A stretch of DNA of 48,848 nt from an uncultured Lachnospiraceae bacterium (lineage in GTDB: Bacteria; Bacillota; Clostridia; Lachnospirales; Lachnospiraceae). Of this stretch, positions 8,777 through 38,044 are shown one piece after another. The stretch covers positions 1 to 48,848 of the forward strand of contig ONEJ01000082.1 in the NCBI GenBank assembly GCA_900316805.1, read 5' to 3'. The first letter of the stretch is position 1, and each line of letters starts with the position of its first letter. The translations under genes were made by a program, and so were the position numbers. Under the pieces are notes generated by a model. That model saw nothing but the letters and a program-made list of their open reading frames with translations. It ran no database searches and had not been told where the DNA came from.

Positions 8777-8807
8777 GAATATGTAACCCTTTTTTGGCAA
8801 GCATTTC

Positions 8808-8851
8808 AGCAGGATTGGACTCCCTCTGTATTATTCCAATCCTGCTTTTTT
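8808..8851 (+). terminator. Intrinsic terminator after the exonuclease/annealase genes
   Basis: AGCAGGATTGGA and TCCAATCCTGCT form a perfect 12-bp stem with a 15-base loop, followed by TTTTT. The next gene starts 22 bases later. Confidence 0.9.
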
Positions 8852-8872
8852 AGAATGGAGGCGAATAATAAT

Positions 8873-11488: not shown

Positions 11489-13694
<2,206 letters not shown>

Positions 13695-16879: not shown

Positions 16880-17428
16880 ATGAATGAATTCAAAAATAAT
16901 GCACAGGTAGATATTATTAGAGAAGAATTTGACAGAAACAGAGTTAATTATAATCACAAGGTATATAAAATCTATTTTCCTGCGAGGAATGGATCTCCAA
17001 TCATTATGAGTGGACCGGCAGGATACCATCAGATTATTCGCATGGGAGTACATTATTTCAATGGTAAGAACAATCGCTTTATCGTTAAAGAAATGGGGGA
17101 TGGAGATGTTATGTCTGTTATGGATATGGGGAGAACTGTGCAGACATTGAACAACGAATCTATCATTGTAAACATTGATAGCAAGTATGGGGGAATGTTT
17201 TACGAAGAAGATGGCTTTGTTTCCAATGCTGCTGATGATGGCAAGTTTCTTATCGTTATAGAGGCGATTCCTAATATCAATGCGCAAATGACAGCTTACT
17301 TTGTGATTTACAAGAATCCTGAGATAGCTGAGTCGTCAGGGGATGTGAAGTTTATGAAAATTGATCAGGAAGAATTTGAAATTTTTTATTCTTTGCTTAA
17401 TGCATTGGATACAGGGGTGGTTGTATGA
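16880..17428 (+). CDS. Unknown protein upstream of the D5 helicase
   Basis: This 182-residue, mostly beta-rich protein starts at an ATG eight bases after AGGAGG; the frame extends ten codons further upstream without a better start. It contains KVYKIYFPARNGSPIIMSGPAG and KFLIVIEAIPNINAQMTAYFVIY. No family is recognised. Its stop overlaps the ATG of the helicase gene by four bases, so the two are coupled and it is probably a replication accessory protein. That role is inferred from position only. Confidence 0.65.
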   Translation: MNEFKNNAQVDIIREEFDRNRVNYNHKVYKIYFPARNGSPIIMSGPAGYHQIIRMGVHYFNGKNNRFIVKEMGDGDVMSVMDMGRTVQTLNNESIIVNIDSKYGGMFYEEDGFVSNAADDGKFLIVIEAIPNINAQMTAYFVIYKNPEIAESSGDVKFMKIDQEEFEIFYSLLNALDTGVVV

Positions 17429-19035
17429 GAGAACTATTGAACATGGATATACTGATTGGAAATGCCATCTCTGATCCACTTATGGATGCACCGGCACGTA
17501 ATCATATAAATTCAGATGGTTTTGATAATTGTATATCGCAGCCATTTGATGCTCTCTTGGACGCTCCGATTCACCGTCATAAGTGTGTGCGTTTTAGTGA
17601 TCCGCTTTTTGATGCACCAATTAAAAATGTAGAAAAATCTGCAGAAAGAGCACTTGACGGCTGGGAAGGATTTAAGTTAAGCACAGACGATTCAGAAGAT
17701 AATGCAATCGTAGTTTCTCCGGCTACATTATCCTGTTTGAAGGAACGAGGCGATATGCAGCTCGCATTGACAGAAATTGCTGATAAAGTGACAGCTTTTT
17801 GGAAACTCAAGAGAGTGGGCGACAATATATACTACTATAAAGCACCTATTTGGAGAAAACTTTCTGGCTATAAGGAGCTGCGCAAGATAACAGCATCTTG
17901 TCTGGATTGCCATGATTTATTAAAGACTCAGCAGTTTAAGGAAATCTACAATATTCTTCAGGGAAGAATTGAGAAATATGACTACCTGAACTTGAATGAT
18001 GAGAGATATCAGAACTTCATCTGCTTTAATAATGGAATCTATGATGTGATGAGTGATACTATGTTAGCCCATGAATACAAATACCCATTTCTTAATTACA
18101 TTGACTTTGACTATATGCCAGGGGTAGCAGGAGATGGACCAGTTTTTGATGCTTATTTAATCTCCGTCAGCCAAGACAACAGCAATGTTCGTAAGCGAAT
18201 TTTGCAGTGGATGGGATATGTAAGCTGCCCTCTTCCTAATTTGAAAAAGATTGCACTGCTTGTTGGTGAACGAGACAGCGGAAAGACAACTTTAGCAAAT
18301 GTTATGGTAATGATTATTGGGGAAGAGAATGTTCAGTCTTTTAACATGGAGCACATAGGCAGGTTTACAAATCACGCTATGTTTGGAAAACTGTTAGGTC
18401 TTTGTACTGATCTAAGTGGAAAGAGGTTAAAGCCTGAAGCAATGGAGTGGCTTAAAGAGCAGACTGGTGGTGACCATGTGAGTGCTGAGGTTAAATTCGG
18501 TGATCAATACTCATATGTTAGCAACTGCCGATATATTATAGCTTCTAACTTTAGACCGAATTTAGGAAATGATGATGCTCTTGAAAATCGTTTTTTGACA
18601 ATTCCATTTCCGGTATCAGTGCCGGATGAGGAAAAGAATGTCCATCTATTAGAGGATATAAGAAGTGAAATGCAGCATGTATTCTACCTGATGTTTGAGG
18701 AACTTCGAGAATTTATCCGAAATGGAATGAAATTCGCTAATATAGGAGAACTCGAATATTACGTTCCGCAGAATTGCATGGTTAAGCATGAATCTGTGAT
18801 GGACTTCTACGAGGATTGCTGCCTCATAGAAGCTGGAAGCAAGATTGGAGGGACAGAGTTATATAAGTATTATGTTCCTTACTGCCATAGCATAGGTGCA
18901 AAACCAATATCTGAAAGATCCTTTTGCACGCAATTTAAGAAGATTGCTGATTCTAAAGGAATAAAGGAAGATCGAAATGATACTCGTGGATACAAGGGTT
19001 TGTCTGTGAGAGATATTCTTGTGGACAACAAGTAG
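17425..19035 (+). CDS. D5-type (SF3) replicative helicase / phage-plasmid primase-like protein
   Basis: This 536-residue protein has a D5_N-like region (about 150-260: FNNGIYDVMSDTMLAHEY) and an SF3/AAA+ helicase core. Walker A is LLVGERDSGKTTL (about 282-294); Walker B-like GLCTDLSG and sensor region YIIASNFRPN follow, with a C-terminal winged-helix-like end. These helicases unwind origins of phages and integrated elements. No archaeo-eukaryotic primase domain is present, so it would rely on another primase. The N-terminus carries three copies of a DPLxDAP-like motif (16-23, 41-48, 58-65). Its start overlaps the preceding stop (ATGA). Confidence 0.85.
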   Translation: MRELLNMDILIGNAISDPLMDAPARNHINSDGFDNCISQPFDALLDAPIHRHKCVRFSDPLFDAPIKNVEKSAERALDGWEGFKLSTDDSEDNAIVVSPATLSCLKERGDMQLALTEIADKVTAFWKLKRVGDNIYYYKAPIWRKLSGYKELRKITASCLDCHDLLKTQQFKEIYNILQGRIEKYDYLNLNDERYQNFICFNNGIYDVMSDTMLAHEYKYPFLNYIDFDYMPGVAGDGPVFDAYLISVSQDNSNVRKRILQWMGYVSCPLPNLKKIALLVGERDSGKTTLANVMVMIIGEENVQSFNMEHIGRFTNHAMFGKLLGLCTDLSGKRLKPEAMEWLKEQTGGDHVSAEVKFGDQYSYVSNCRYIIASNFRPNLGNDDALENRFLTIPFPVSVPDEEKNVHLLEDIRSEMQHVFYLMFEELREFIRNGMKFANIGELEYYVPQNCMVKHESVMDFYEDCCLIEAGSKIGGTELYKYYVPYCHSIGAKPISERSFCTQFKKIADSKGIKEDRNDTRGYKGLSVRDILVDNK

Positions 19036-19128: not shown

Positions 19129-19425
19129 ATGGCTAATATAATGAATCAAGCAACTGTTGCGGATGCAATCGCAGCAAGACAAAACAAAGATTATGATTTT
19201 AGCAGTGAAGTTAATGTATCGAATGCCAGTGAGGAGAAAGCGGTTTATACGCCGGAAGAAATAAAAAGCATACTTTCAATGAGCCGCGCAAAAACGTATT
19301 CTTATTTGGCTGAAGTCGCAGAGAAGCAAAAACCCTTTAGGGTGCTAAAAATTGGCAGGTTAGTCAGGATTCCAAAGATTGATTTCGATAAATGGCTTGC
19401 TGGAACGCAGGAGGAGGCTGGATAA
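19129..19425 (+). CDS. Excisionase-like helix-turn-helix protein
   Basis: This 98-residue protein has an unstructured, Asn/Ala-rich N-terminus (1-38) and a C-terminal excisionase-family HTH (about 40-90: YTPEEIKSILSMSRAKTYSYL, then FRVLKIGRLVRIPKIDFDKWL). It lies directly before two tyrosine integrases, the usual position of a recombination directionality factor. AGAGGAGG precedes ATG 19129. The integrase ATG follows one base after its stop, so they are co-translated. It is the likely excision factor of this element. Confidence 0.82.
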   Translation: MANIMNQATVADAIAARQNKDYDFSSEVNVSNASEEKAVYTPEEIKSILSMSRAKTYSYLAEVAEKQKPFRVLKIGRLVRIPKIDFDKWLAGTQEEAG

Positions 19426-19426
19426 A

Positions 19427-20596
19427 ATGACAAAACGAAGTAAAGGAGCTGCTTTCTTTGAAGGCAGCTCTTGGAAGCACAGGGTTAAGATATTGAAGCC
19501 TGATGGCTCTATTGAATATACGAAGCGTGGTGGTTTTGCTACACAGGATGAAGCGGAGAAAAGCTACAAGCAATATGAAACGACATTCCAAAAAGCTTAT
19601 AGAGATCGCCAGATGGAGCAAGGTCTTGGTGCTGACATGGGGCTAAAAGAGTATCTGGAGTATTGGTTTGAGAACGAATTTAGCAGCAGAATAGAAAGCA
19701 CTACCCGAATGGTGGGGAGCTATACTTTATACAATCTGCTTCTTCCTCATTTAGAGCAGGAAATCAAGCTTCGACATCTTAACAGTGGTTATTTGGATGC
19801 TCTGTTACTGGCTGCATCGAAAGCCTGTCCATCAGCAGGTAATAAATCCAGAGAATTTTTGAACATGGCTCTGAGCGACGCTGTTCTTCATGGATATATA
19901 AGCAAGAACCCAGTGAAAGATACGAAGCCCTATTCACGACCAAAGCCCAAAGTACGCATTCTTTCAAAGGAAAAGCTTAAAATATTCATGGAAGCCGCCT
20001 ATCATACGAACTGGTATCTTGAAATTTTACTCGCAGTTACTTGTGGACTGCGAAAGGGCGAGATATTAGCTCTCTCATTTGATAGTTTTGATAAAAATGA
20101 AATGTCGGTTACGATAACAAAGCAGATTACATCAAACCCAATAGTTGAAAATGGGGGATTTAAGATTATGGAATATGGTGCTGTAGAGAAGTATCCTAAG
20201 ACCGCGGAAAGCATTAGGACAATCAGAGTGCCACAGGCAGTATTGAACGAGCTGGTAAAACGAGAGAATGTTATAAAGGGTGACAAAATTAAATTTGGAT
20301 CGGATTACATTGACAACGGTTTTATTTCTTGTCAATCCAATGGAATGCCCCATTCTTTATCGGCTTTCAATCAGGCATTAACAAGAATTTGTGAGAGACA
20401 TTCGCTGCCACATATTACCCCGCATTCTTTAAGACATCAATACGCAACAATACTGATGGAGAATGGTGTTCCAATACCAAAAATTTCAGCCCTGCTTGGG
20501 CATAAATCTGTTACAACCACTTATGATTACTATTGCGAGGTAATGGACGAAGAGGAGCATATCATTGATTTTCTTAACGCATCATTTATTCCATAG
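19427..20596 (+). CDS. Tyrosine recombinase/integrase 1
   Basis: This 389-residue integrase has an N-terminal arm-binding region (about 10-60), a SAM-like core-binding domain (about 75-170) and a C-terminal catalytic domain. Visible active-site residues are Arg209 (CGLRKGE), His333 and Arg336 (HSLRHQ), His359 (LGHKS) and Tyr368 in TTYDYY. AGGAGG precedes ATG 19427; a start 48 bases upstream would overlap the excisionase gene. It lies directly upstream of a second full-length integrase in the same operon. Confidence 0.92.
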   Translation: MTKRSKGAAFFEGSSWKHRVKILKPDGSIEYTKRGGFATQDEAEKSYKQYETTFQKAYRDRQMEQGLGADMGLKEYLEYWFENEFSSRIESTTRMVGSYTLYNLLLPHLEQEIKLRHLNSGYLDALLLAASKACPSAGNKSREFLNMALSDAVLHGYISKNPVKDTKPYSRPKPKVRILSKEKLKIFMEAAYHTNWYLEILLAVTCGLRKGEILALSFDSFDKNEMSVTITKQITSNPIVENGGFKIMEYGAVEKYPKTAESIRTIRVPQAVLNELVKRENVIKGDKIKFGSDYIDNGFISCQSNGMPHSLSAFNQALTRICERHSLPHITPHSLRHQYATILMENGVPIPKISALLGHKSVTTTYDYYCEVMDEEEHIIDFLNASFIP

Positions 20597-20617: not shown

Positions 20618-21925
20618 ATGGAAAAAGGGCTATCTGAGTATGTAGATTTTTCCGTGTATAACGTTACTACGATAAAGAATGGTTACGGTTATCGGGTGGT
20701 GCTAAAATATGCGGATGGCACAAAGAAAACCCAGCAGAAATCTGGATTTTCGAGCAAAAGGGAAGCCCAGAAAGCTAGGGAGAGAACGATTGCGGAGCTT
20801 TATAATGGTGAGTATATCGTTCATGCAGGTATCAGTGTAAAAGATTTTATGTGGCTCTGGCTCGAAGAAGATATCAGAAATCGGACAGATAGTGACGATA
20901 CCTATTCTACATTCAAGGGCATCGTAAAGAATCATGTGGTGCCAGAGATTGGAAATAAGCAGATGTCGATGGTTACGCCTGGGGATATACAGAAGCTATA
21001 TAACAAGAAAGCGGAGTATTCTCTTTCTGTTGTGCGACTGGTGAAAGCGGTGCTTTGCATCGCTTTTCGTTATGCAGAAGATAAGAAGATCATATCACAT
21101 AATCCAACAAAAGGAGTGAACCTTCCCAAACATAGTGTCGAGAGTAAGCCGTATCATACAAGAATAATTGATACGACAAAAACGCTGGATATGGAGCAGA
21201 TTATGTTATTGCTCGAAAAGAGCAGAGAAACAAAAATACATATGCAGGTGTGCTTCAATGTCCTTATGGGGCTTCGCAGAGGCGAAATCAATGGAGTTAA
21301 ATATTCAGATGTTGACTATGTAAACCATACTCTGACGATTGAGCGTCAGTTGGGTAAGGTGCTCGGTGCAAAGAAAGAAGACTATGCTCTCAAAACGCTG
21401 ACAAAACAGGAAATTGATGTTAAAACTGAATCCAGCCACAGAGTGCTTCCGATTCCGGATTATGTATTTGAAGCAATTCAGGAAGAACGAAAGAGGTATG
21501 AGGCGAACAGACGACGCAGAAGCACGACTTTTCAGGACATGGATTATATCTGCTGCTCCAGTTATGGAAGACCTCGTAGTAAAAATTATCACTGGACGCA
21601 TTATAAGCAGCTCCTTGCAGACTGTGGACTGCCTGATATCAGATGGCATGATCTACGCTCTACGTTTTGTACGCTTCTAATCCAGAATGATTTCTCTCCG
21701 AAAGCAGTATCAAGGCTGATGGGACACGCACGAGAAATCATTACGCTGGATGTTTATAGTGACAAGCAAAAGCTCATAGCCGATTGTATTCCAGAGATTA
21801 GTGATTATCTGGAGGAAATACTTCCAAAAGACGATGACAGTAGTGAGGCTAAAAATCTGACAGATGTAGAGCTTGACTTTAGTGATATATTGCCTTATGG
21901 GAGTAATGCAGATGATGCAGGATAA
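20618..21925 (+). CDS. Tyrosine recombinase/integrase 2
   Basis: This 435-residue integrase has an AP2-like arm-binding start (YGYRVVLKYADGTKKTQQKSGFSSKREAQKAR), a core-binding domain (about 65-165) and a complete catalytic domain: Arg220 (GLRRGE), His344 and Arg347 (HDLRST), His370 (MGHAR) and Tyr380 (LDVYSD). An acidic tail of about 50 residues follows. AAGGGAG precedes ATG 20618. It is the last element gene before the uvrB promoter region and is the best candidate for the enzyme that placed the element in uvrB. Confidence 0.92.
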   Translation: MEKGLSEYVDFSVYNVTTIKNGYGYRVVLKYADGTKKTQQKSGFSSKREAQKARERTIAELYNGEYIVHAGISVKDFMWLWLEEDIRNRTDSDDTYSTFKGIVKNHVVPEIGNKQMSMVTPGDIQKLYNKKAEYSLSVVRLVKAVLCIAFRYAEDKKIISHNPTKGVNLPKHSVESKPYHTRIIDTTKTLDMEQIMLLLEKSRETKIHMQVCFNVLMGLRRGEINGVKYSDVDYVNHTLTIERQLGKVLGAKKEDYALKTLTKQEIDVKTESSHRVLPIPDYVFEAIQEERKRYEANRRRRSTTFQDMDYICCSSYGRPRSKNYHWTHYKQLLADCGLPDIRWHDLRSTFCTLLIQNDFSPKAVSRLMGHAREIITLDVYSDKQKLIADCIPEISDYLEEILPKDDDSSEAKNLTDVELDFSDILPYGSNADDAG

Positions 21926-22238
21926 TCGTTTTTTGGAAGGGTTCAATCGTTTGTGATTGGTGTTGATGGAATGACCGCGAAGCGGGTATTTTCAACATTT
22001 TTTGTCTGTCTGGATATAGACTTGCAAAGATGTGTATGGTATAATTTTTGGTAATTGTGCCCCTCTATATAATACTGTCTAATCCATGTAGTTACAGGCG
22101 GTATTGGGGAGTTTCAAAAAAGAGAGTTTGTGACCAGCATTCGTATTCTGCTGATTTTGGAAGAAATCAAGGATTGCTCAGTACGAATTTGTGGCGAATA
22201 GACGAACTTTTTTACTATGACAAACAGGAGGTGGTTTT
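21926..22238. other. Right-end intergenic region of the element and uvrB leader
   Basis: No gene was found here. It contains a weak hairpin (CCGC/GCGG, 21975-21985) followed by a T-rich stretch that may end the integrase operon, the uvrB promoter (22017-22045) and a leader of roughly 185 bases before the uvrB start. No LexA-type box (GAAC-N4-GTTC) was found. Confidence 0.6.
22017..22045 (+). promoter_or_regulatory. Promoter for uvrB-uvrA
   Basis: TAGACT (22017-22022), a 17-base spacer and TATAAT (22040-22045) with an extended -10 TGG directly before it. Because it lies on the element side of the inferred junction, uvrB transcription may be driven by the element. Confidence 0.65.
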
Positions 22239-24239
22239 GTGCAAGATGGACAAAATCTGTTCAAGCTTCATGCACCATACCAGCCCACAGGCGACCAGCC
22301 TCAAGCGATAGAAGAACTTGTAAAAGGCTTCAAGGAAGGCAACCAATTCCAGACTTTACTAGGTGTTACAGGCTCAGGCAAGACATTCACGATGGCTAAC
22401 GTGATAGCGGCTTTGAATAAGCCCACTTTGGTAATATCTCACAATAAGACGCTTGCTGCCCAGCTCTATGGTGAGATGAAAGAGTATTTTCCTGAAAATG
22501 CCGTTGAGTATTTTGTCTCATATTACGACTACTACCAGCCGGAGGCCTACGTGCCCCAGTCGGATACCTATATCGCCAAGGATTCCTCCATTAATGATGA
22601 GATTGATAAGCTGCGTCTGTCGGCCACCGCTGCCCTGTCGGAGCGGCAGGATGTAATTATTGTGGCGTCCGTATCCTGTATCTACGGTCTCGGAAGCCCC
22701 GATGAATGGCTGGGAATGAGTCTGTCCTTAAGACCGGGGATGGAGAAGGATCGGGATGAGGCAGTCCATGCCCTGATCGACATGCAGTACAGCCGTAATG
22801 ATATGGACTTTAAGAGAGGAACTTTCCGGGTACACGGAGATGTGCTGGATATTTTTCCGGCAAACAATTCAGAAACGGCGATTCGCGTGGAGTTTTTCGG
22901 GGATGAGATCGACCGGATCACGGAGATTGATGTGCTGACAGGAGAGATAAAGTGTACCCTGGAGCACGCCATGATCTTTCCCGCTTCCCACTATGTAGTT
23001 TCCCAGGATAAGATCAACCGGGCCTGTGACAATATCGAGAAGGAACTGGCAGAGCAGGTGAAGTTCTTCAAGGGGGAAGATAAGCTGATCGAAGCCCAGC
23101 GGATTGCAGAGCGGACGAATTTTGATATAGAGATGATGCGGGAGACGGGCTTTTGTTCCGGTATTGAGAATTATTCAAGACACCTGAATTTCCAGCCTGC
23201 CGGAGCACCGCCCATGACCCTTTTGGATTTCTTCCCGGATGATTTTCTCATAATCGTGGATGAGTCCCATATTACGATTCCCCAGGTGCGGGGCATGTAT
23301 GCGGGAGACCGCTCCAGGAAGCAGACTCTGGTGGACTATGGGTTCCGGCTTCCGTCGGCACTGGACAACCGGCCGTTGAATTTCGAGGAGTTTGAGGGGA
23401 AGATTGACCAGATGCTTTTTGTGTCCGCGACCCCTAATGAATATGAAGATACCCATGAACTGCTTCGGGTAGAGCAGGTGATCCGCCCTACCGGACTTCT
23501 GGATCCGGAGATTTCCGTTCGTCCGGTGGAGGGACAGATCGATGATCTGATCTCTGAGGTCAATAAGGAGACAGCCAAGCATCATAAGGTGCTGATCACC
23601 ACATTGACCAAGCGGATGGCAGAGGATCTGACCCAGTATATGAGCGAAGTGGGGATCCGTGTGAAGTATCTCCATTCGGATATTGACACCCTGGAGCGGT
23701 CAGAAATCATCCGTGACCTCCGATTGGATGTTTTTGATGTGCTGGTGGGAATCAACCTTCTCCGTGAGGGACTGGATATACCGGAAATTACATTGGTTGC
23801 GATCCTGGATGCGGATAAGGAAGGCTTCCTGCGTTCGGAGACTTCCCTGATCCAGACCATTGGCCGTGCGGCCCGAAACAGTGAGGGACATGTCATCATG
23901 TATGCTGAAAAGATCACGGATTCCATGCGGGCAGCCATCGATGAGACCATGCGGCGCCGTAAGATTCAGCAGGATTACAATGAGGCCCATGGCATTGTTC
24001 CAAAGACCATCCAAAAATCCGTGCGTGATTTGATCGCAATATCCAAGAAGGTAGCGGCGCAGGAGGCGAAGTTTACGAAGGATCCGGAATCCATGAGCCG
24101 TGAGGAACTGGAGAAGCTGGTCGCAGATATCCAGAAGAAGATGAAGAAAGCAGCTACAGAGCTGAATTTTGAGGCGGCGGCAGAGTACAGGGATCAGATG
24201 ATATCCCTCAAGAAGATGTTACAGGAAGAGAGCAGATAA
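22239..24239 (+). CDS. uvrB: Excinuclease ABC subunit B (UvrB), apparently chimeric at its 5' end
   Basis: This 666-residue protein is the damage-verifying helicase of nucleotide excision repair. It shows Walker A TGSGKT (about 44-49), the beta-hairpin region [17 protein letters not shown] (about 95-111), the DESH box, helicase motifs [13 protein letters not shown] and QTIGRAARN, and the C-terminal UVR domain that binds UvrC. GTG 22239 follows AGGAGG. The first 100 codons have one CTG among nine Leu and ATA for all three Ile. From about codon 101 CTG dominates and ATA disappears, and GC rises from about 45% to about 55% by hand count. I infer that an integration or recombination junction lies at about 22,521-22,541. 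uvrA follows after one base. Confidence 0.97.
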
Positions 24240-24240
24240 C

Positions 24241-27078
24241 ATGGCAAAGAAGAAAGAAAGAAAATATATTAAGATACGGGGTGCCAGTGAGCACAATTTA
24301 AAGTCCATTGATATTGATATCCCCAGAGATGAATTTGTGGTGCTGACGGGATTGTCGGGATCGGGAAAGTCATCCCTTGCCTTTGATACCATCTATGCAG
24401 AGGGTCAGAGAAGATATATGGAGTCTCTGTCCTCCTATGCAAGACAGTTTCTTGGGCAGATGGAGAAACCCAATGTAGAATCGATCGAGGGACTTCCGCC
24501 GGCCATCTCCATTGACCAGAAGTCCACCAACCGCAATCCCCGGTCTACTGTGGGAACGGTGACGGAAATCTACGACTATTTCCGTCTTCTGTATGCGAGA
24601 ATCGGAATTCCCCACTGTCCCAAGTGTGGACGTGCTATTGAGAAGCAGACCATAGATCAGATGGTGGATGCGGTGATGCAGCTGCCGGAGCGGACGAAGA
24701 TTCAGGTGCTGGCGCCGGTGGTAAGAGGCCGCAAGGGAGAACACCAGAAGCTTTTCGAGAAGGCCAAAAAGAGCGGCTATGTCCGGGTGATCGTGGATGG
24801 AAGTATGTACGATCTGTCCGAGGAAATCCCCATGGACAAGAATATCAAGCATAATATCGACATCGTTGTGGATCGTCTTGTGGTAAAGGAGGGAATCGAG
24901 AAGAGGCTGACAGATTCCCTGGAGAACGTATTTGCCCTGACGGAGGGCAACGCTATCATAGATGTGGTGGATGGACAGCAGATGAATTTTTCCCAGAAGT
25001 TTGCCTGCCCGGACTGTAACGTCAGCATTGATGAGGTGGAGCCCAGAAGCTTTTCCTTCAATAATCCCTTTGGTGCCTGTCCGGTGTGCTACGGACTTGG
25101 GTATAAGATGGAATTCGATGAGGAACTGATGATTCCGGATAAGAGCCTTTCCCTGGCGGAGGGGGCAATACAGGTGATGGGATGGCAGTCCTGTACGGAT
25201 CCTTCCAGCTATACCTATGCAACCCTGCAGGCTTTGTCGGAGGGCTATGGCTTTTCTCTGGATACGCCTTATGGGGAACTGCCGAAGGAAATCCGGCACA
25301 TGCTTCTTCACGGCGGGGATGGGAGAGTCCTGAAGGTCCGTTACAAGGGGCAGCGGGGCGAGGGTGTTTATGATCTGAATTGGGAAGGCCTTATTAAGAA
25401 TGTGGAGCGGCGTTACCGGGAGACGGGATCTGACACCACGAAGCAGGAATACGAGCAGTTTATGCGGATTACCCCCTGTGCGTCCTGCCATGGACAGAGG
25501 CTGAAGCAGAGCTCTCTTGCCGTGACGGTATGCGATAAGAATATTTATGAGATGACGACCATGTCCGTGAAGGAATTGGTGGTATTTCTGGATCGGATGA
25601 AACTGACCGAGCAGCAGCAGTTTATCGGGAACCAGATCCTTAAGGAAATCCGTTCCCGGGTGGGATTTTTGCAGGAGGTGGGACTGGAATACCTGACCCT
25701 GACCCGTGCCACGGCTTCCCTGTCGGGAGGCGAGGCCCAGCGGATCCGTCTGGCCACCCAGATCGGCTCCGGGCTGGTGGGAGTTGCCTATATTCTGGAC
25801 GAGCCCAGCATAGGGCTGCATCAGAGAGATAATGATAAGCTGCTTCACGCCCTGATGAACCTGAAGAATCTGGGGAATACCCTCATCGTGGTGGAGCATG
25901 ATGAGGATACTATGCGGGCAGCGGATTTTATTGTGGATATCGGACCGGCTGCCGGTGTGCACGGCGGTGAGGTGGTGGTTGCGGGAACGGCAGCGGAGAT
26001 CATGAAGTGCAGACGTTCTGTTACCGGAGATTATCTCAGCGGCAGAAAGAAAATCCCGGTTCCCGCAGAGCGGAGGAAACCTACGGGCTTTATCACCATC
26101 AAAGGAGCCAGGGAGAACAACCTGAAGAATATCGATGTGGATATCCCTCTGGGAGTGATGACCTGTATTACCGGTGTGTCAGGCTCCGGCAAAAGTTCCC
26201 TGACCAATGAGATCCTTTATAAGCATCTGGCAAGAACTTTAAACCGCGCCCGCTGTATTCCGGGGGAGCACGATGACATTCTGGGGCTGGAGCAGCTGGA
26301 CAAGATCATTGACATTGACCAGTCTCCCATAGGGCGGACCCCAAGGTCCAATCCCGCAACCTACACCGGAGTCTTTGATATGATCCGGGATCTGTTTGCG
26401 GCTACACCGGATGCCAAGGCCCGGGGTTACAAAAAGGGCCGTTTCAGCTTTAACGTGAAGGGTGGCCGCTGCGAGGCCTGCAGCGGAGACGGAATCCTTA
26501 AGATTGAGATGCACTTCCTGCCGGATGTGTATGTGCCCTGTGAGGTCTGCGGCGGTAAGCGCTATAACCGGGAAACACTGGAGGTGAAGTATAAGGGAAA
26601 GAGCATTTACGATGTGCTGGACATGACAGTGGAGGAAGCCCTTGATTTCTTCAAAAATGTGCCCACCATTGAGCGGAAGATCCAGACTCTGTACGATGTG
26701 GGACTTTCCTATATCAAACTGGGACAGCCTTCCACAGAGCTGTCCGGCGGCGAGGCCCAGCGGATCAAGCTAGCCACAGAGTTCAGCAAGAGAGGAACCG
26801 GACGAACCATCTACGTGCTGGATGAACCTACAACGGGACTTCATTTTGCAGATGTACACAAGCTGGTGGAAATCTTGAGAAAACTGTCTGACAGCGGCAA
26901 TACCGTTGTGGTCATTGAACACAACCTGGATGTGATCAAAACTGCGGATTACATCATTGATATGGGCCCGGAGGGTGGAGATGGCGGCGGCACCGTGATC
27001 GCCAAGGGAACACCGGAGGAGGTCTGCCAGGTTCCGCAGTCCTATACGGGACAGTTTTTAAAGCCGTATCTGTCCTGA
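24241..27078 (+). CDS. uvrA: Excinuclease ABC subunit A (UvrA)
   Basis: This 945-residue tandem ABC ATPase finds DNA lesions together with UvrB. The first ATPase half has [12 protein letters not shown] (about 34-45) and a zinc-binding cluster; the second half has [10 protein letters not shown] and a further zinc cluster ([18 protein letters not shown]). Both signature motifs (LSGGEAQRI) are present and followed by Walker B sequences ([20 protein letters not shown]). The length matches normal UvrA. Its ATG is one base after the uvrB stop, with the ribosome binding site (CAGGAAGAG) inside uvrB, so the two subunits are co-translated. Codon use is uniformly host-like. Confidence 0.98.
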
Positions 27079-27167
27079 GTTTTTCGTGGATATCCGATAA
27101 AATCATTACCAAAAAATGGCATAATTCTTATATTTTTATGAAATCTACCCGGCAGGGAAAAAAATGT

Positions 27168-27195
27168 TTGAAAAATGGAATTTATTGTATATAAT
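27168..27195 (+). promoter_or_regulatory. Sigma-A promoter upstream of mbl
   Basis: TTGAAA (27168-27173) and TATAAT (27190-27195) are separated by 16 bases, in the ~260-base gap between uvrA and mbl. The leader to the mbl start is about 140 bases. Confidence 0.65.
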
Positions 27196-27339
27196 GTTAC
27201 TGTATGTATAAAATATGATTAACTGCGGTTTTTTGGCTTATCATTTGAAAAGGGTTTCAGATGAGAGCGGGGACAGATTCGCAAGCAGACAGATTTGGAA
27301 TAGATGTAGATAAAATTATAGGAAGGGGTATTGTTTGGA

Positions 27340-28335
27340 ATGATCGGATCAGATATCGGAATTGATTTAGGTACGGCCAGTATTTTAGTATATATCAAAG
27401 GAAAGGGTGTCGTGTTAAAGGAGCCGTCGGTGGTTGCCTTTGACCGCGATACCAATAAGATCAAAGCAATTGGTGAGGAAGCGCGTCTGATGCTTGGTAG
27501 AACACCGGGGAATATCGTGGCTGTTCGTCCCCTGCGCCAGGGCGTAATTTCTGATTATACCGTGACAGAGAAGATGATCAAGTACTTTATCCAGAAGGCA
27601 CTGGGAAAGAAGAGCTTCCGTAAGCCAAGAATCAGTGTCTGTGTACCAAGCGGTGTCACGGAGGTGGAGAAGAAAGCCGTTGAGGACGCTACCTATCAGG
27701 CAGGAGCCCGAGAAGTAGAGATCATCGAGGAGCCTATCGCTGCTGCCATCGGCGCCGGTATTGATATTGCACGGCCTTGCGGAAATATGATCGTGGATAT
27801 CGGAGGCGGTACCTCTGATATTGCAGTAATTTCTCTGGGAGGCTCTGTTGTCAGCACTTCTGTGAAGATTGCGGGAGATGATTTCGACGAGGCTCTGGTT
27901 CGCTATATGCGTAAAAAGCACAATTTACTCATTGGTGAGCGTACCGCTGAGGATATTAAGATTAAGATCGGTACCTGTTATCCGCTGGCTCAGAATGAGA
28001 CCATGGATGTCCGTGGACGAAATCTTGTGACTGGACTTCCTCGTACCATTACCGTAAGCTCCGAGGAGACGGAGGAGGCACTGCGGGAGTCTACCCTTCA
28101 GATTGTAGAGGCGGTTCATTCCGTATTGGAGAAGACTCCGCCGGAGTTGGCAGCAGATGTGGCTGACCGCGGAATCGTCCTGACCGGAGGAGGAGCCCTG
28201 CTTCGCGGACTGGAGCAGCTGATCGAGGAGAAAACAGGCATCAACACCATGACAGCTGAGCATCCGATGACCTGCGTGGCCATCGGAACCGGTAAGTATG
28301 TAGAATTTCTTTCCGGAAAAAGAGACGATGATTAA
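27340..28335 (+). CDS. mbl: MreB-family cell-shape protein (Mbl)
   Basis: This actin-like ATPase forms membrane-associated filaments that guide cell-wall synthesis. Actin-fold motifs are clear: phosphate 1 DIGIDLGTAS at the start, phosphate 2 IVDIGGGTSDIAV (about 151-163) and the adenosine motif LTGGGALLRGLEQLI. The length (331 residues) fits MreB/Mbl. I use ATG 27340; a TTG at 27331 would give MFG-MIGSD and sits only four bases from AGGAAGG. Its neighbours flgF and flgG recall the Bacillus mbl-flhO-flhP order, which is why I call it Mbl rather than MreB. Confidence 0.9.
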   Translation: MIGSDIGIDLGTASILVYIKGKGVVLKEPSVVAFDRDTNKIKAIGEEARLMLGRTPGNIVAVRPLRQGVISDYTVTEKMIKYFIQKALGKKSFRKPRISVCVPSGVTEVEKKAVEDATYQAGAREVEIIEEPIAAAIGAGIDIARPCGNMIVDIGGGTSDIAVISLGGSVVSTSVKIAGDDFDEALVRYMRKKHNLLIGERTAEDIKIKIGTCYPLAQNETMDVRGRNLVTGLPRTITVSSEETEEALRESTLQIVEAVHSVLEKTPPELAADVADRGIVLTGGGALLRGLEQLIEEKTGINTMTAEHPMTCVAIGTGKYVEFLSGKRDDD

Positions 28336-28345
28336 TCGTTTCCTA

Positions 28346-28372
28346 TAAAGCATTTGGAAAAAGGACCGATAT
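28346..28372 (+). promoter_or_regulatory. SigD (sigma-28) type flagellar promoter before flgF
   Basis: TAAA (28346-28349), a 15-base spacer and ACCGATAT (28365-28372) match the SigD consensus TAAA-N15-GCCGATAT in all but one base. It lies 51 bases before flgF, in the gap after mbl, so the rod genes can be expressed with the flagellar regulon independently of mbl. Confidence 0.8.
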
Positions 28373-28423
28373 ACAAAATAGATATTTGTTCACACAGAGC
28401 ACATTGCGCGAAAGGGGTGCAAT

Positions 28424-29227
28424 ATGGTAAAGGGATTGTATACCGCCCATACGGGCATGGTCAATGAGATGCGGCGTCTGGATATTCTTTCCAATAATCT
28501 TGCGAATGCAGACACCACGGCCTATAAGAAGGAGGGGACAACCTCCCGGACTTTTGCGGATGAAATGTCTGTCCGTATGAAAGACAGTTCCAATTATGGC
28601 CAGCCCAAGAAGCTTGGGGAGATTACCTATGGGGTTCATCTGGGACAGGTATACACCGATTACAGCACCGGAAGCTTTAAGGTAACAGACAATACAACAG
28701 ACTTCGCCCTTGACGGTGAGGGCTTTTTTGCGATTGCTTTTACTGATAAAGAGGGCAATACCTCTGTGAAATATACCAGGGATGGAGCCTTTACCGTGAA
28801 TACGGAGGGCTATCTTGTAACCAAGGATGGTGATTATGTTCTGAACGCCACAGGCGCCAGGAACGGGGATCCGGATGAGGAGAATTTTATCCGCGTTGAC
28901 CCCAATGCAGCCATTGCGGTGGACAAGATGGGATACATTTCCCAGAATAATCAGATCGTAGGGACTTTGGGTATCGTGGACGTAGATAATTACGATTATC
29001 TGGAAAAGTACGGAGAGAATATGTACAATCTGCTGGATGGGGGCAACCGGATTGCTTCGGGTGCCAGAATAGAGCAGGGGGTTCTCGAAACCTCCAATGT
29101 GAATGTGATTAATGAGATGGTAAATATGATCACGATTCAGCGGGCCTATGAGGCGGGACAGAAGGTAATTACCTCCATTGACAGCACTTTGGACAGAGCG
29201 GTGAACAGCGTTGGCAAAGTACAGTAA
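28424..29227 (+). CDS. flgF: Flagellar basal-body rod protein, FlgF/FlhO type
   Basis: This 267-residue rod/hook-family protein forms part of the flagellar rod. The N-terminal signature is MVKGLYTAHTGMVNEMRRLDILSNNLANADTTAYKKEG; the C-terminus carries the matching conserved end SNVNVINEMVNMITIQRAYEAGQKVITSIDSTLDRAV. The central domain (TDFALDGEGFFAI) is the usual FlgE/F/G insert. There is no signal peptide, as expected for a substrate of the flagellar export apparatus. AAAGGGG precedes the ATG, and a SigD promoter lies upstream. It corresponds in order to Bacillus flhO. Confidence 0.93.
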   Translation: MVKGLYTAHTGMVNEMRRLDILSNNLANADTTAYKKEGTTSRTFADEMSVRMKDSSNYGQPKKLGEITYGVHLGQVYTDYSTGSFKVTDNTTDFALDGEGFFAIAFTDKEGNTSVKYTRDGAFTVNTEGYLVTKDGDYVLNATGARNGDPDEENFIRVDPNAAIAVDKMGYISQNNQIVGTLGIVDVDNYDYLEKYGENMYNLLDGGNRIASGARIEQGVLETSNVNVINEMVNMITIQRAYEAGQKVITSIDSTLDRAVNSVGKVQ

Positions 29228-29262
29228 TTTTCCGGATGAAATGAGGAAGGAGTAAGAGCCCT

Positions 29263-30081
29263 ATGATGCGAGCACTTTATACTGCGGCAACAGGAATGAT
29301 TGCGGAGCAGACCAATGTTGACACCATCGCCAACAATTTAGCCAATGTAAATACAAACGGTTATAAGACCGAGCGTACAGAGTTCAAATCTCTTTTATAT
29401 CAGACATTACAGACGAAGACCACTACCGCCAACGGTGAGTACAAGCCGGTGGGAGCCCAGGTGGGGCTTGGTACCCGTGTGGCGGCCACCACCTCTATGT
29501 ATACGCAGGGCTCCCTTCTGGACAGTGAGAGCCCCACGGATTTTGCCATTGATGGAAACGGTTTTTTTGCAGTCCGTGCAGAGGATGGACAGACCTATTA
29601 TACCAGGAACGGAAGTTTTACCTGGAGTAAAACGGCAGATGGTGCCACGATCCTCACGGATCATGAGGGATGTCCGGTTTTGGATTCTGAAGGAGGTCAG
29701 ATTGCTGTTCCGGAGGGAATATCTTCGGAGAGCATGATATTTGGACAGGATGGAAGTATTTCCTATCGTGATACGGCAGGGAATACAATTCCGCTGAATC
29801 AGTCTTTTGGTATTTATCAGTTTAATAATCCGGCAGGACTTGAGAAACTTTCTTCCAGCCGGCTGGGAGTGACCGCGGCGTCCGGCAATCCTATGCTTGA
29901 GAGTGCCAACCAGGGACTTAAAGCAAGCAAGGTATGTGTGGGCTATCTGGAAGGCTCCAATGTTCAGGTGGCGGATGAGATGGTCAATATGATTGCGGCC
30001 CAGAGAGCTTATGAGTTGAATTCCAAGGCAATCACCACAGCGGATTCCATGCTGGAAACCGCCAACAACCTGAAGAGATAA
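29263..30081 (+). CDS. flgG: Flagellar distal rod protein FlgG/FlhP
   Basis: This 272-residue protein has the FlgG-type start MMRALYTAATGMIAEQTNVDTIANNLANVNTNGYKTER and the end GSNVQVADEMVNMIAAQRAYELNSKAITTADSMLETANNLKR. The segment VGAQVGLGTRVAATT is characteristic of FlgG. It forms the distal rod of the flagellum. AAGGAG lies ten bases before ATG 29263. It follows flgF by 35 bases and precedes the FlgJ-like gene, so the three form one rod operon. The order corresponds to Bacillus flhO-flhP. Confidence 0.94.
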   Translation: MMRALYTAATGMIAEQTNVDTIANNLANVNTNGYKTERTEFKSLLYQTLQTKTTTANGEYKPVGAQVGLGTRVAATTSMYTQGSLLDSESPTDFAIDGNGFFAVRAEDGQTYYTRNGSFTWSKTADGATILTDHEGCPVLDSEGGQIAVPEGISSESMIFGQDGSISYRDTAGNTIPLNQSFGIYQFNNPAGLEKLSSSRLGVTAASGNPMLESANQGLKASKVCVGYLEGSNVQVADEMVNMIAAQRAYELNSKAITTADSMLETANNLKR

Positions 30082-30118
30082 TCTTTGTGTCCGAATTTTA
30101 GAACAGTGAGGTAAGAGT

Positions 30119-30469
30119 ATGGATATATCCGGAATCAGTTCTATATATAATACGGCGAAAACAGATGCCTCGTCAGCAGCTTCCAACAGTCTGCGGAGTT
30201 CCCTTAAGAAGGTGTCTAAGGATTCTTCCGAGGATGAGTTAAAGGGTGTCATCAAAGATTTTGAATCCTACTTTGTAGAGCAGATGCTTAAGGAGATGAA
30301 GGACTCCCTGACTACCCAGGAGGAGGGAGACCAGTCCATGAACCAGTACAGGGATCTGTATATGGACAAGGCCATCGAGCAGATGGCAGATGTGGTTGTG
30401 GATCAGGTGGGAGAGAGCCTGACACAGCAGCTTTACGAGCAGATGAAGCGCAACATCGGAATGGAATAA
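30119..30469 (+). CDS. flgJ: FlgJ-like rod-binding protein
   Basis: This 116-residue protein matches the N-terminal rod-binding domain of FlgJ (about 40-112: IKDFESYFVEQMLKEMKDSL, then YRDLYMDKAIEQMADVV and SLTQQLYEQMKRN). The C-terminal muramidase domain of proteobacterial FlgJ is absent, as is common in Firmicutes, so it would act as a rod assembly cap only. GAGGTAA precedes ATG 30119. It is the last gene of the rod operon and is followed by a hairpin terminator. Confidence 0.88.
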   Translation: MDISGISSIYNTAKTDASSAASNSLRSSLKKVSKDSSEDELKGVIKDFESYFVEQMLKEMKDSLTTQEEGDQSMNQYRDLYMDKAIEQMADVVVDQVGESLTQQLYEQMKRNIGME

Positions 30470-30484
30470 ACGTGCGTGATTTAT

Positions 30485-30522
30485 AGGGAGATTATCCACA
30501 GCCATGGGTAATCTCCCTTTGT
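30485..30522 (+). terminator. Terminator of the flagellar rod operon
   Basis: AGGGAGATTA and TAATCTCCCT form a 10-bp stem with a 14-base loop; the T-tract is short (TTTGTT). The recD2 ribosome binding site follows within 20 bases. Confidence 0.65.
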
Positions 30523-30549
30523 TAGGCAAAGAAGAAGGAGTAAGGAATT

Positions 30550-32766
30550 TTGGATAATACCCAGGAGACGATCAATGGATACGTGGATCATATCATATAT
30601 CGCAAGGCGGAAAATGGATATACGGTGCTGGTACTGATCTGCGGTGAGGAAGAAATTACCTGTGTGGGGGTGTTTTCGGATATCGCAGAGGGGGAGAATA
30701 TCGAGGCTCATGGATTTTACACGGATCATCCCACCTATGGGCATCAGTTTTCCGTGAAGAGCTATGAGGAAAAGGCTCCGGAGGATGAAGTGGCCATTGA
30801 GCGTTATCTTGGATCGGGAGCCATCAAGGGCATTGGTATCGCCCTGGCGGCAAGAATCGTGCGAAGATTTAAGGAGGACACCTTCCGGATCATTGAGGAG
30901 GAACCGGAACGGCTGGCAGAGATCAAAGGTATCAGCGAGCGCAAGGCCATGGAGATTGCAGAGCAGGTCAATGGGAAAAAAGAGCTGCGGGCTGCCATGA
31001 TCTTTCTGCAGAAATACGGAATTACCACAGCATTAGCTGTGAAGATTTACAATACATATGGGCAGGAAATCTATGGAATCTTAAAGGAAAATCCCTACCG
31101 GTTGGCAGATGACGTGGAGGGCGTGGGCTTTCGCACGGCAGATGAGATTGCTGCCCGGGTGGGGATAAAGACCGACTCGGATTTCCGGATCCGAAGCGGA
31201 ATCCAGTACGCACTCCTGCAGGCTTCTTCGGAGGGGCACACCTATCTCCCCCAGGAGGAACTGACGAAGCGGGCTGTTGAACTTCTGTCGGTAAGCCCCG
31301 AGGCAATCGAGAATGAGTATATGAATCTGGCCATGGACCGGAAGATTATGATGCGTCAGTCAGAGGGCGTGACACAGATTTATGCAGCAGCCTTTTTCTA
31401 TATGGAGGCGAATGCGGCGGCGATGTTAAAGCAGTTGGATGCGGGCTTTGATGTACCGGATATTGAGATCGAGGCAAGAATCCGGGAAATCGAAAAGCAG
31501 ACCAAGATGGAACTGGAGGAACATCAGGTCGAGGCGGTCAAGGAGGCTGTCAGGAACGGCCTTCTTGTGATCACAGGAGGTCCCGGTACCGGAAAAACCA
31601 CCACCATCAATACCATCATCCGCTATTTTGAACTGGAAGGCTATGACATCATGCTGGCGGCGCCCACCGGTCGGGCGGCTAAGCGTATGAGCGAGACCAC
31701 AGGCTTTGAGGCCCGCACAATCCACCGGATGCTGGAGTTGAACGGCGGCGCGGAAGGAACGGCAGGTTTCGAACGCAATGAGCAGAATCCGCTGGAAACG
31801 GATGTGATCATCATCGATGAGATGTCCATGGTGGATATTTCTCTCATGTACGCCCTGCTGAAGGCAATCCCCGCGGGCACAAGGCTGATTCTGGTGGGGG
31901 ATGTGAACCAGCTTCCCAGTGTGGGACCCGGCAGTGTTTTGAAGGATATTATCGATTCGAAGCTGTTTCATACTGTGGAACTTAAGAAGATCTTCCGGCA
32001 GGCCAGCACCAGTGACATTATTGTCAACGCCCACAAGATCAACCGTGGGGAAAAGGTCAGTCTGGACAACAAGAGTATGGATTTCTTTTTCCTTAAGCGG
32101 TATGATGCAGATAAGATCATCAACGTGACACTTCAGCTGATTTTGCAGAAGCTCCCGAAATATGTTAATGCTGCCACCTATGATATTCAGGTGCTGACGC
32201 CGATGCGTAAAGGCCTGCTGGGGGTGGAACGCCTGAATACGATTCTGCAGATGTATCTGAATCCGGCATCGGAGAAGAAAAGGGAGAAGGAGCATGGCAC
32301 AAGGGTTTTTCGGGAGGGAGACAAGGTCATGCAGACTAAGAACAATTATCAGCTGGAGTGGGAGATCCGGAGCAGATACGGTCTGTGTATCGACAAAGGA
32401 ACCGGAATTTTTAACGGAGATATGGGCATCATAGAACAGATCAATGATTTTGCGGAGACCATGACCATTTCCTTCGATGAGGGGCGCACGGTGGAATATT
32501 CCTATAAGCTTCTGGACGAGCTGGAGCTGGCTTATGCGGTTACGATCCACAAATCCCAGGGCTCGGAGTATCCGGCGGTGGTGATTCCGCTGCTTTCCGG
32601 ACCACAGATGCTGATGAACCGGAATCTTCTCTACACAGCCGTTACAAGGGCAAAAAAATGTGTTACAATTGTAGGAAATGATGAAGCCTTCCGGCATATG
32701 ATAGAGAATAATTCGCAGCAGAAACGCTACAGCGGACTTAAGGACCGCTTATTGGAGGATATGTGA
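30550..32766 (+). CDS. recD2: RecD2-family SF1B DNA helicase
   Basis: This 738-residue 5'-3' helicase belongs to the RecBC-independent RecD2 group involved in DNA repair and replication-fork maintenance. The N-terminal extension (about 1-320) contains an OB-like region and helix-hairpin-helix repeats (GSGAIKGIGIALAARIV, KGISERKAMEIAEQV, DDVEGVGFRTADEIA). The helicase core begins with GGPGTGKTTTIN (Lys349), followed by DEMSMVD, GDVNQLPSVGPG and the C-terminal motif TIHKSQGSEYP. The start is TTG 30550, nine bases after AAGGAG. It overlaps the following GNAT gene at TGATG. Confidence 0.95.
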   Translation: MDNTQETINGYVDHIIYRKAENGYTVLVLICGEEEITCVGVFSDIAEGENIEAHGFYTDHPTYGHQFSVKSYEEKAPEDEVAIERYLGSGAIKGIGIALAARIVRRFKEDTFRIIEEEPERLAEIKGISERKAMEIAEQVNGKKELRAAMIFLQKYGITTALAVKIYNTYGQEIYGILKENPYRLADDVEGVGFRTADEIAARVGIKTDSDFRIRSGIQYALLQASSEGHTYLPQEELTKRAVELLSVSPEAIENEYMNLAMDRKIMMRQSEGVTQIYAAAFFYMEANAAAMLKQLDAGFDVPDIEIEARIREIEKQTKMELEEHQVEAVKEAVRNGLLVITGGPGTGKTTTINTIIRYFELEGYDIMLAAPTGRAAKRMSETTGFEARTIHRMLELNGGAEGTAGFERNEQNPLETDVIIIDEMSMVDISLMYALLKAIPAGTRLILVGDVNQLPSVGPGSVLKDIIDSKLFHTVELKKIFRQASTSDIIVNAHKINRGEKVSLDNKSMDFFFLKRYDADKIINVTLQLILQKLPKYVNAATYDIQVLTPMRKGLLGVERLNTILQMYLNPASEKKREKEHGTRVFREGDKVMQTKNNYQLEWEIRSRYGLCIDKGTGIFNGDMGIIEQINDFAETMTISFDEGRTVEYSYKLLDELELAYAVTIHKSQGSEYPAVVIPLLSGPQMLMNRNLLYTAVTRAKKCVTIVGNDEAFRHMIENNSQQKRYSGLKDRLLEDM

Positions 32767-33353
32767 TGGATATAAGAATTTTGGAAGAACAGGAAATACC
32801 GCAGGCACTGACAATGGCCAGGGGAGTATTTGATTTCTGCATCGGCGGAAATGTGCCGGATCCGCAGCTGGTGAGTGGTTTTATGGAGTACTCCTCCACA
32901 GAACGGATCATGGCTATGGCGGCAGAGGGGAGCATTACCCTCTGGGGCGCTTTTGAGCAGGGACAGCTGGCAGGCATGTCTGCCATGCAGAAGGAAGGGC
33001 ACATTACCATGCTCTATGTGCTGCCGGTATTCCAGAGAAAAGGTATCGGCAAAAAACTGCTGATCACTATGCGTACTTACGCCAGAACCAGATACGGCTA
33101 TTCCGATGTGACGGTCAATGCCATGCCGGTATACACCGCCGCCTATTTCCAGAAGCGCAAATTTGAGCAGATGGGACAGGTGCCCATGGGCTGCCCCTAT
33201 GTGTCCATGCGTGCAAAGACCATCGAGGAGGTATCCTACGAAAAGAAAGAAATTCCTGCCGGGTGGGCTATTGGCGCATCGGTTGGGGGGCTGGTACTTT
33301 GCGGCGCGATTGCGGCTGCTTTTATGGTATGTTATTTCCAGGGAATCATTTAG
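32766..33353 (+). CDS. GNAT-family acetyltransferase with C-terminal membrane helix
   Basis: This 195-residue protein has a GNAT acetyl-CoA-binding fold; its motif A is TMLYVLPVFQRKGIGKKLLITMRTYAR (about 80-107). The residues after about 165 form one transmembrane helix (WAIGASVGGLVLCGAIAAAFMVCYF), an uncommon addition to a GNAT enzyme. The substrate is unknown. Its ATG overlaps the recD2 stop (TGATG) and is preceded by GGAGG seven bases away, so it is coupled to recD2. A link between the two functions is not evident. Confidence 0.85.
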   Translation: MDIRILEEQEIPQALTMARGVFDFCIGGNVPDPQLVSGFMEYSSTERIMAMAAEGSITLWGAFEQGQLAGMSAMQKEGHITMLYVLPVFQRKGIGKKLLITMRTYARTRYGYSDVTVNAMPVYTAAYFQKRKFEQMGQVPMGCPYVSMRAKTIEEVSYEKKEIPAGWAIGASVGGLVLCGAIAAAFMVCYFQGII

Positions 33354-33376
33354 GGCGATTTTTCTCTGGAAATAGG

Positions 33377-33447
33377 TTGAAAAAAATGTCGTGTTATGAT
33401 AAACTTTTTACAATTTAGGGAAAAAAAGAGTTCTACTCTTTTTTTTT
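33377..33447 (+). promoter_or_regulatory. carAB promoter region with a hairpin and T-run in the leader
   Basis: TTGAAA (33377-33382) and TAAACT (33400-33405) are spaced by 17 bases. Shortly downstream AAAAAAAGAGT and ACTCTTTTTTT (33421-33445) form an 11-bp stem with loop TCT and a T-run. It sits about 50 bases before the carA start, so it either ends recD2/GNAT transcripts or attenuates carAB. No PyrR-box-like sequence was found. Confidence 0.5.
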
Positions 33448-33496
33448 GCCAAGATGCAGGAATGAGCTGGGAATTCAAAGAAAGGCAGGACAGAGA

Positions 33497-37851: not shown

Positions 37852-37872
37852 AACCATATAGGAATACAGAAG

Positions 37873-37903
37873 GAATCAGCGGGGATTTTCGCTGGTTCTT
37901 TTT
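37873..37903 (+). terminator. Intrinsic terminator of carAB
   Basis: GAATCAGC and GCTGGTTC form an 8-bp stem (one G-T pair) with a 10-base loop followed by TTTTT. Confidence 0.8.
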
Positions 37904-37992
37904 GCATATTGGCAAAGTGCACAAGAAAGAAAATTAGCTTTATACCTTTTTCACAAAGAAGCTTTGTTTTTTGTTTCGGACATGGAAATAGA

Positions 37993-38044
37993 TTGATTTT
38001 AAGCGGAAAATGTGGTATTATAGACATTGTTAAAAAATTAACAG
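37993..38044 (+). promoter_or_regulatory. Promoter of the butyrate operon with Rex-type operator
   Basis: TTGATT (37993-37998), a 17-base spacer and TATTAT (38016-38021) form the promoter. The sequence TTGTTAAAAAATTAACAG at 38027-38044 matches the clostridial Rex consensus TTGTTAA-N4-TTAACAA in 13 of 14 fixed positions and covers the start-site region, so Rex would block transcription when NADH/NAD+ is low. A separate GCGTCA-TT-TGACGC palindrome (38044-38057) lies in the leader. Confidence 0.82.

Follow-up and report, generated by a model that had tools for sequence, protein, structure and literature searches.

The principle that an integrating element supplies a promoter and an N-terminus to the gene in which it sits is already known from SXT in prfC and from islands in dusA. 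As far as the available text of the sources goes, SXT/R391 ICEs in prfC supply a promoter and an N-terminus (PMC2791158; PMC8409611; Hochhut and Waldor, 1999, as cited), and the dusA-specific islands of Vibrio and relatives supply a promoter together with a new 35-residue N-terminus; for IMEVchUSA3 and other dusA-specific islands, the reading frame is restored and expression was shown with a lacZ fusion (PMC8409611). Here, we analysed a locus of an uncultured Lachnospiraceae bacterium in which an element has very probably inserted inside uvrB, replacing the promoter and codons 1–94 and leaving a readable host–element hybrid gene. In common with the SXT and dusA kind, integration lies in the 5′ portion of a conserved coding sequence, as judged by displaced fragments and clade tests, and the frame is restored by an N-terminus from the element. 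Compared with the dusA islands, however, the replaced part comprises about 94 codons with the Walker A motif instead of 35 residues, the hosts are Lachnospiraceae and the integrases are paired. SXT/R391 elements target prfC, carry one Int and reside in other hosts. Membership among the SXT/R391 ICEs was rejected, since the target here is uvrB and not prfC.

Organization of the locus

The window, meaning the whole stretch of 48,848 nucleotides analysed, is contig C53 of a 2.25 Mb MAG that is 82% complete and consists of 103 contigs. When the window was compared by blastn with 40 kb of the element-free congener G010, positions 22284–41274 were collinear with G010, and no match was found left of uvrB. 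GC is 34–44% on the left (element) side versus 45–55% on the right. The features are as follows.

1–22514 (to about 22,515), no strand: integrated element, right-hand part, its left end off the contig (blastn against G010, and GC)
5609–9778, + strand: module of DUF932, YqaJ, Rad52-like and DUF5688 genes, with a small ORF between the first two (Pfam)
17425–19035, + strand: P4-family primase/helicase (TIGR01613, E 9.8e-37, above cut-off)
19129–19425, + strand: small HTH_17 protein, in an excisionase-like position before the integrases (Pfam HTH_17)
19379–20596, + strand: IntA, tyrosine recombinase (Phage_integrase, E 3.3e-19)
20618–21925, + strand: IntB, tyrosine recombinase (Pfam Phage_integrase, Arm-DNA-bind_4 and SAM_3 domains)
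22037–22045, + strand: extended –10 promoter-like element TGGTATAAT, on the element side (sequence)
22130–22213, + strand: conserved leader, with GTGACC..ATTCGT at 22130–22144, ACGAAT at 22183–22188 and ACGAACTTTTTT at 22202–22213
22227–22235, + strand: putative ribosome binding site AGGAGGTGG (sequence)
22239–22520, + strand: element-borne uvrB 5′ segment, codons 1–94, GTG start, Walker A included (DNA distance, tree placement)
22512–22523, + strand: predicted attachment core, TTTGTCTCATAT in the window (displaced copies)
22521–24239, + strand: host uvrB body, codons 95–666 (groups with congeners)
24241–27078, + strand: uvrA-like gene, native right flank (collinear with G010, 79% identity)

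The uvrB ORF runs from a GTG at 22239 to 24239 (666 aa) and is 80% identical to G010 uvrB over 22284–24226; solved UvrB chains match the window protein at up to E 1.5e-294. The Walker A motif (GVTGSGKT) lies inside the replaced part, and the conserved coding segment at the junction is presumably the base of the DNA-probing β-hairpin. The gene that follows we take to be uvrA from gene order, not from a family search. At the right end of the element, the order is HTH–IntA–IntB, promoter and leader, and the element's own uvrB codons 1–94, with host uvrB from about codon 95; 313 bp separate the end of IntB from the uvrB start. The initial annotation had placed two tyrosine integrases just upstream of uvrB, and both were recognized by Pfam Phage_integrase at 19379–20596 and 20618–21925. 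R220, H344, R347, H370 and Y380 of IntB are invariant across 15 aligned proteins, including that of the window. A homologue of the HTH_17 protein occurs in 58 of 86 element sequences searched, and the protein is a putative excisionase. The uvrB element of Acetatifactor muris has homologues of the DUF932, YqaJ, Rad52-like and DUF5688 genes, likewise in this order. The element also carries a gene for an NAD-dependent DNA ligase (11727–13694), homologues of which were found in 4 of 86 related sequences searched.

The genes secA and uvrB adjoin in G010, with 118 bp from the secA stop to the uvrB ATG, and are separated on two contigs, C4 and C53, in the window's own genome, where the assembly left the two contigs unjoined. 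On C4, secA (4546–1955, towards base 1; Pfam SecA) shares 91% identity over 456 aa with the ORF immediately preceding intact uvrB in G010; collinearity with G010 covers C4 up to secA and the window from uvrB on. Beyond secA, C4 holds a carbohydrate-enzyme-like ORF and two toxin–antitoxin-like small ORFs (all named by eye), then, further along, what is left of a leader, together with about 10 codons of a decayed uvrB start of the element type, followed by DNA 85–92% identical over 46–120 bases to the left ends of other uvrB elements. The native promoter and uvrB codons 1–94 were not found in this assembly, including beside secA. No near-complete displaced uvrB copy is present in this genome, the start of about 10 codons adjoining DNA from an older insertion. 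The prediction that a displaced native 5′ fragment of uvrB would lie at the left end held in relatives, as described below; in the window's own genome, only the roughly 10 codons of decayed element-type start on C4 were recovered. At the left end on C4, the suffix of the site is CCAG and differs from that in the right leader of the window; this left end may therefore belong to another element of the family, and the locus may hold two in a row. A pattern search for the left-end site in the same genome gave, besides the window's own, one hit on C9, apparently in coding sequence.

Displaced uvrB 5′ copies in relatives

When the window's UvrB was used to search 60 relatives, short copies of about codons 6–97 turned up besides full uvrB. 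Within the genus, the 5′ query matched in 53 of 62 genomes, and a clear displaced copy was present in 10 of the 62 congeners (G005, G006, G023, G027, G029, G033, G064, G068, G074 and G078); G004, also of the genus, has a decayed one. Pieces in G002, G017 and G080 were left out of the count because contig ends could explain them. When 120 genomes of the family with completeness of at least 90% were drawn, 116 matched and displaced copies were found in 14, of which 4 are partial or decayed; G215 and G225 were not counted, as each shows two adjacent pieces of one gene.

After removal of duplicates and of near-identical or short loci, 43 displaced copies were available. The match ends at codons 94–97 in 40 of them and at codons 98–100 in the other 3, other DNA following. 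TTTGTNTCCTA stands at the end of 34/43 and a close variant at the end of most others; one copy runs into N, and one (L048) is without the core. These endpoints therefore placed the attachment core at 22,512–22,523 of the window. The initial annotation had proposed, from a rise in GC, a breakpoint at 22,521–22,541 and an attachment site within the uvrB coding stretch; the breakpoint deduced from displaced copies (22,518–22,529) agrees with the former, and the fragments of relatives, which stop at the predicted codons, corroborate the latter. An in-frame stop follows within 12 codons in 36/43 copies. Stops in codons 8–93 were present in 9/32 displaced copies without an upstream integrase versus 0/70 and 0/66 full genes, and 10 of the 42 copies readable over these codons look decayed (4 with an internal stop, 6 without the 5′ part). 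In Lachnoclostridium sp. An138, the displaced copy is without its 5′ part, and in A. muris it is open.

Where enough upstream DNA was available, the ORF upstream of the displaced copy resembled one upstream of integrase-free uvrB in 13/28 cases, and in 2 of these (L239 and L272) the match is to the copy's own locus. Applied to integrase-linked loci, this comparison is uninformative, since integrase-bearing loci remained among those compared against. At five loci of the genus (L044, L045, L047, L048 and L270), the ORF upstream of the displaced copy is 75–87% identical to the ORF upstream of the congeners' intact uvrB. Two displaced 5′ copies in one genome (G131:C1:5450222–5453257) lie on the other strand at a distance of millions of bases from uvrB, which points to a rearranged chromosome or a misassembly. 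Inside a uvrB-bounded insert (L262:910–4591, in G407), tyrosine recombinase genes stand in a row, two assigned by Pfam and the third an unscanned ORF.

Distribution of the integrase pair

Among 397 family genomes, 23, counting that of the window, contain IntB relatives (E up to 1e-60). In a scan of the class at E up to 1e-70, matches were limited to 3/391 genomes: the window's own, one of the same family and one outside the family. No relatives were found when viral contigs were searched with the IntB alignment, and the IntB relatives on plasmids and phages have 25–29% identity among the 20 matches listed, and none reached 60%. In another family of the class, one locus (L300; G639:C39:61430–62575 plus flanks) carries an IntA–IntB pair at 32–36% identity, followed by a short relic resembling the uvrB core (50% over 20 residues), and no uvrB 5′ copy in the locus.

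Scanning genome contigs with the alignment of 15 IntB proteins yielded 217 relatives, and we retained the best 80. Among these 80 loci, 62 have uvrB extending past codon 110 within 1.5 kb downstream (interrupted by a run of N in L158 and by a frame break near codon 36–41 in L198), and 6 have only the first 94–97 uvrB codons, then other DNA (L165, L175, L194, L196, L203 and L209). Two more (L183 and L202) are cut by a contig end inside the uvrB 5′ part and were kept apart from these six. Another 5 loci end too early for uvrB to be seen, and 5 have no uvrB within 1.5 kb. Of these last five, L211 and L220 are loci where uvrB follows further on behind other genes, as does a uvrB 5′ part at L210; L189 and L229 have IntB and no uvrB in the locus DNA examined, and when both were checked for retargeting to other genes, neither a leader nor a clear new target was seen. 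At 69 of the 80 loci, IntB has an IntA match upstream. IntA and IntB probably catalyse the insertion into uvrB.

These counts bear on whether the element might instead sit in the secA–uvrB intergenic region, the uvrB 5′ part having been exchanged separately by homologous recombination. The 5′ copies are alike in DNA, which would allow some exchange, and breakpoints between homologous copies cannot be placed exactly. However, truncated 5′ copies with one common end would be unexpected from such exchange, whereas 40/43 displaced copies end at codons 94–97, 34/43 with one core, and uvrB lies downstream at 62 of the best 80 of 217 IntB loci; we therefore consider separate exchange highly improbable and insertion inside uvrB the preferred reading.

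Mosaic structure of uvrB

Composition had led the initial annotation to regard the 5′ part of uvrB as foreign, and its counts were reproduced: in codons 1–100, CTG serves 1/9 Leu and ATA 3/3 Ile (GC 44.7%), and in codons 101–170, CTG serves 5/7 Leu and ATA 0/6 Ile (GC 55.2%). The third-position GC difference of the window's uvrB is 0.16, and 2/66 uvrB genes without a detected integrase exceed it; thus, composition alone proves little and was rejected as proof of insertion. The same two genes would fit a native uvrB with local variation in codon usage and a separate element next door.

Of 140 full loci, a frame check of the body dropped 2/72 integrase-linked loci and 2/68 others, and trees were built from the remaining 136 for codons 8–93 (5′ segment) and codons 100–480 (body). 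The genus (34 loci) is accepted as one clade for the body (p-AU 0.999) versus rejection for the 5′ segment (p-AU 3.2e-6). Genus labels change 3 times on the body tree versus 17 times on the 5′ tree, and integrase-linked labels change 21 times on the 5′ tree versus 30 times on the body tree; these were quick trees, and the search of the body tree was shallow, since the free tree lies 182 log units below the tree with the genus held together. By DNA distance, the six 5′ segments closest to that of the window all belong to integrase-linked uvrB loci in other genera, and the eight bodies closest to its own are all from congeners, in line with the earlier proposal that the element carries a replacement 5′ segment. 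The clade tests refute a native uvrB, and secA and uvrB are moreover separated in the window's own genome, so that we give this explanation practically no credence. The comparative evidence, not composition, lifts the case for insertion inside uvrB above chance.

The correlation between 5′ and body distances was also tried and rejected as a separator of classes, because Spearman coefficients are similar (0.37 for integrase-linked and 0.42 for other loci), the class without integrase including segments of the element type that have lost their integrase or have it off-contig, and some near-duplicates being still present. After the frame check (2/72 dropped), all 70 integrase-linked uvrB genes are free of stops in codons 8–93; the element restores the uvrB reading frame with its own N-terminus. 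Median dN/dS is 0.06 for element-borne segments (699 pairs), 0.02 for their bodies (70 pairs) and 0.04 for other 5′ segments (98 pairs), which indicates purifying selection on the element-borne segment. The value for displaced copies, 0.05, rests on 8 pairs, too few to show relaxed selection. In Eubacterium plexicaudatum ASF492 (G859), uvrB at 5910723–5912576 has an apparent frame break near codon 627, either real or a sequencing error.

The leader upstream of uvrB

A promoter on the element side had been noted initially, and the extended –10 at 22037–22045 upholds this. Across 44 distinct element leaders, TGnTATAAT occurs in 21 (0.68 expected; median position –192) and GAACN4GTTC in 19 (0.12 expected), the expectations being derived from mononucleotide shuffles within 50-base blocks with near-identical or short loci left out. 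We take GAACN4GTTC to be the LexA box of Bacillota. Twelve leaders combine this box with a relaxed extended –10, and the start of the box is then 40–52 bases ahead of the –10. The box is also found in 22/57 other uvrB upstream regions and in G010, and within 250 bases it is present at 16/87 integrase-linked versus 24/65 other full loci; the window's own leader has none. The promoter-like and LexA-like sites suggest that the element promoter may be active and that uvrB expression may be under element control.

The inverted repeat ATTCGT..ACGAAT is present upstream of uvrB in 83/87 integrase-linked versus 9/65 integrase-free full genes and in 7/29 integrase-free displaced copies. Its next three pairs co-vary, forming in 96% of 48 distinct arms versus 46–63% of crossed arms. 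The GTGAC..ATTCGT site is also found about 125 bp inside the left end of the element. Seventeen left/right pairs were tried for agreement of the suffix, and among the 8 that were testable, at least 3 of 4 bases agree in 7 (permutation p 0.004), with G098 as the one pair that breaks the rule. We read the leader site as a putative DNA site of the recombination machinery. For the leader only, the repeat might alternatively be an RNA attenuator of uvrB with ACGAACTTTTTT as the terminator arm, to which the co-varying pairs, the T run after ACGAAC and the position of the inverted repeat between the promoter-like site and the start codon would be suited. The occurrence of GTGAC..ATTCGT with a matching suffix at the left end too, in 7/8 testable pairs, argues against an attenuator, as does a search of the leader against Rfam, which gave no match; we hold the attenuator to be possible, though rather unlikely. 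A recombination site in DNA and a role in RNA could also go together.

Sizes, tandem arrays and gene content

The distance from displaced copy to uvrB is 38.1 kb in Schaedlerella arabinosiphila DSM 106076, 32.2 kb in A. muris DSM 23669, 127.9 kb in G110, 25.1 kb in G098, 13.0 kb in G027, 4.1 kb in G033 and about 1–2.6 kb in G064, G068 and G074. Tandem insertions of 129.1 and 6.8 kb stand in a row in E. plexicaudatum ASF492, as do insertions of 23.9 and 102.7 kb in isolate A46_38.BP.DSS. That the genome under study is a MAG, 82% complete and in 103 contigs, could raise the suspicion that a chimeric assembly joined the element to uvrB; however, the same architecture in the isolates DSM 106076, DSM 23669 and ASF492 refutes this as a general explanation, and its probability is negligible next to that of an element integrated in uvrB.

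Integrative and conjugative elements are a known kind in Bacillota. The 128 kb uvrB element of G110 resembles them in carrying genes for a TraG-like ATPase, an SLT-C39 cell-wall enzyme and an FtsK-family ATPase (10 proteins scanned), and at least one family member therefore looks conjugative. The element in the window differs in that Pfam found no conjugation gene among 20 proteins of its visible part, the left end being off the contig; no phage structural genes were found among 20 window proteins either (Pfam). In L301 and G857:C1 (an IMG/VR record of 38.9 kb), a tailed phage with genes for terminase, portal, capsid, tail sheath and a reverse transcriptase comes after a displaced uvrB 5′ copy and the left end of an element; a prophage may therefore exploit this uvrB site or lie within it. 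Near the left end of two elements (L041:1896–2568 and L042:8415–9117), there are PIN-type toxin–antitoxin-like gene pairs (assigned by eye), and the L041 element also has a methyltransferase gene and a weakly restriction-like helicase gene.

Discussion

As read from sequence comparison, both junction types, a mosaic gene, some decay of displaced copies and tandem insertions are apparent in this family. In the mechanism that we propose, IntA and IntB would recombine attP with attB in the conserved coding segment of uvrB, with a core of about TTTGTNTCCTA. The native promoter and codons 1–94 would end up at the far (left) end, usually closed by a nearby stop, and the right junction would receive the element's promoter, leader and codons 1–94, giving a full-length hybrid UvrB that probably works. 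The displaced native copy would then be free to decay; once it has decayed, precise excision could no longer restore a working uvrB, and this decay may help to retain the element.

Among the matches listed in the open-licence literature, none names uvrB as an attachment site, and the mentions of uvrB met there and checked as such concern element-borne genes instead. As far as searched, the uvrB target, the length and content of the replaced part including Walker A, the paired integrases, the tandem arrays, the LexA-like boxes and the spread in Lachnospiraceae are new.

We give an even chance to the wider idea that about 94 codons of UvrB with Walker A are a mobile cassette of gut Lachnospiraceae, on elements often equipped with a LexA-type box, and that decay of the displaced copy acts as an addiction-like lock. 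If true, a host that lost the element would forfeit nucleotide excision repair, which offers a testable way for an element to become hard to lose with no toxin needed. The uvrB system offers a conserved integration site together with its recombinase pair, and hybrid uvrB confounds gene trees and annotation. Taken together, mobile elements appear to have rebuilt a core DNA-repair gene time and again across a bacterial family that is common in the gut, and the N-terminal part of this gene therefore does not track species ancestry.
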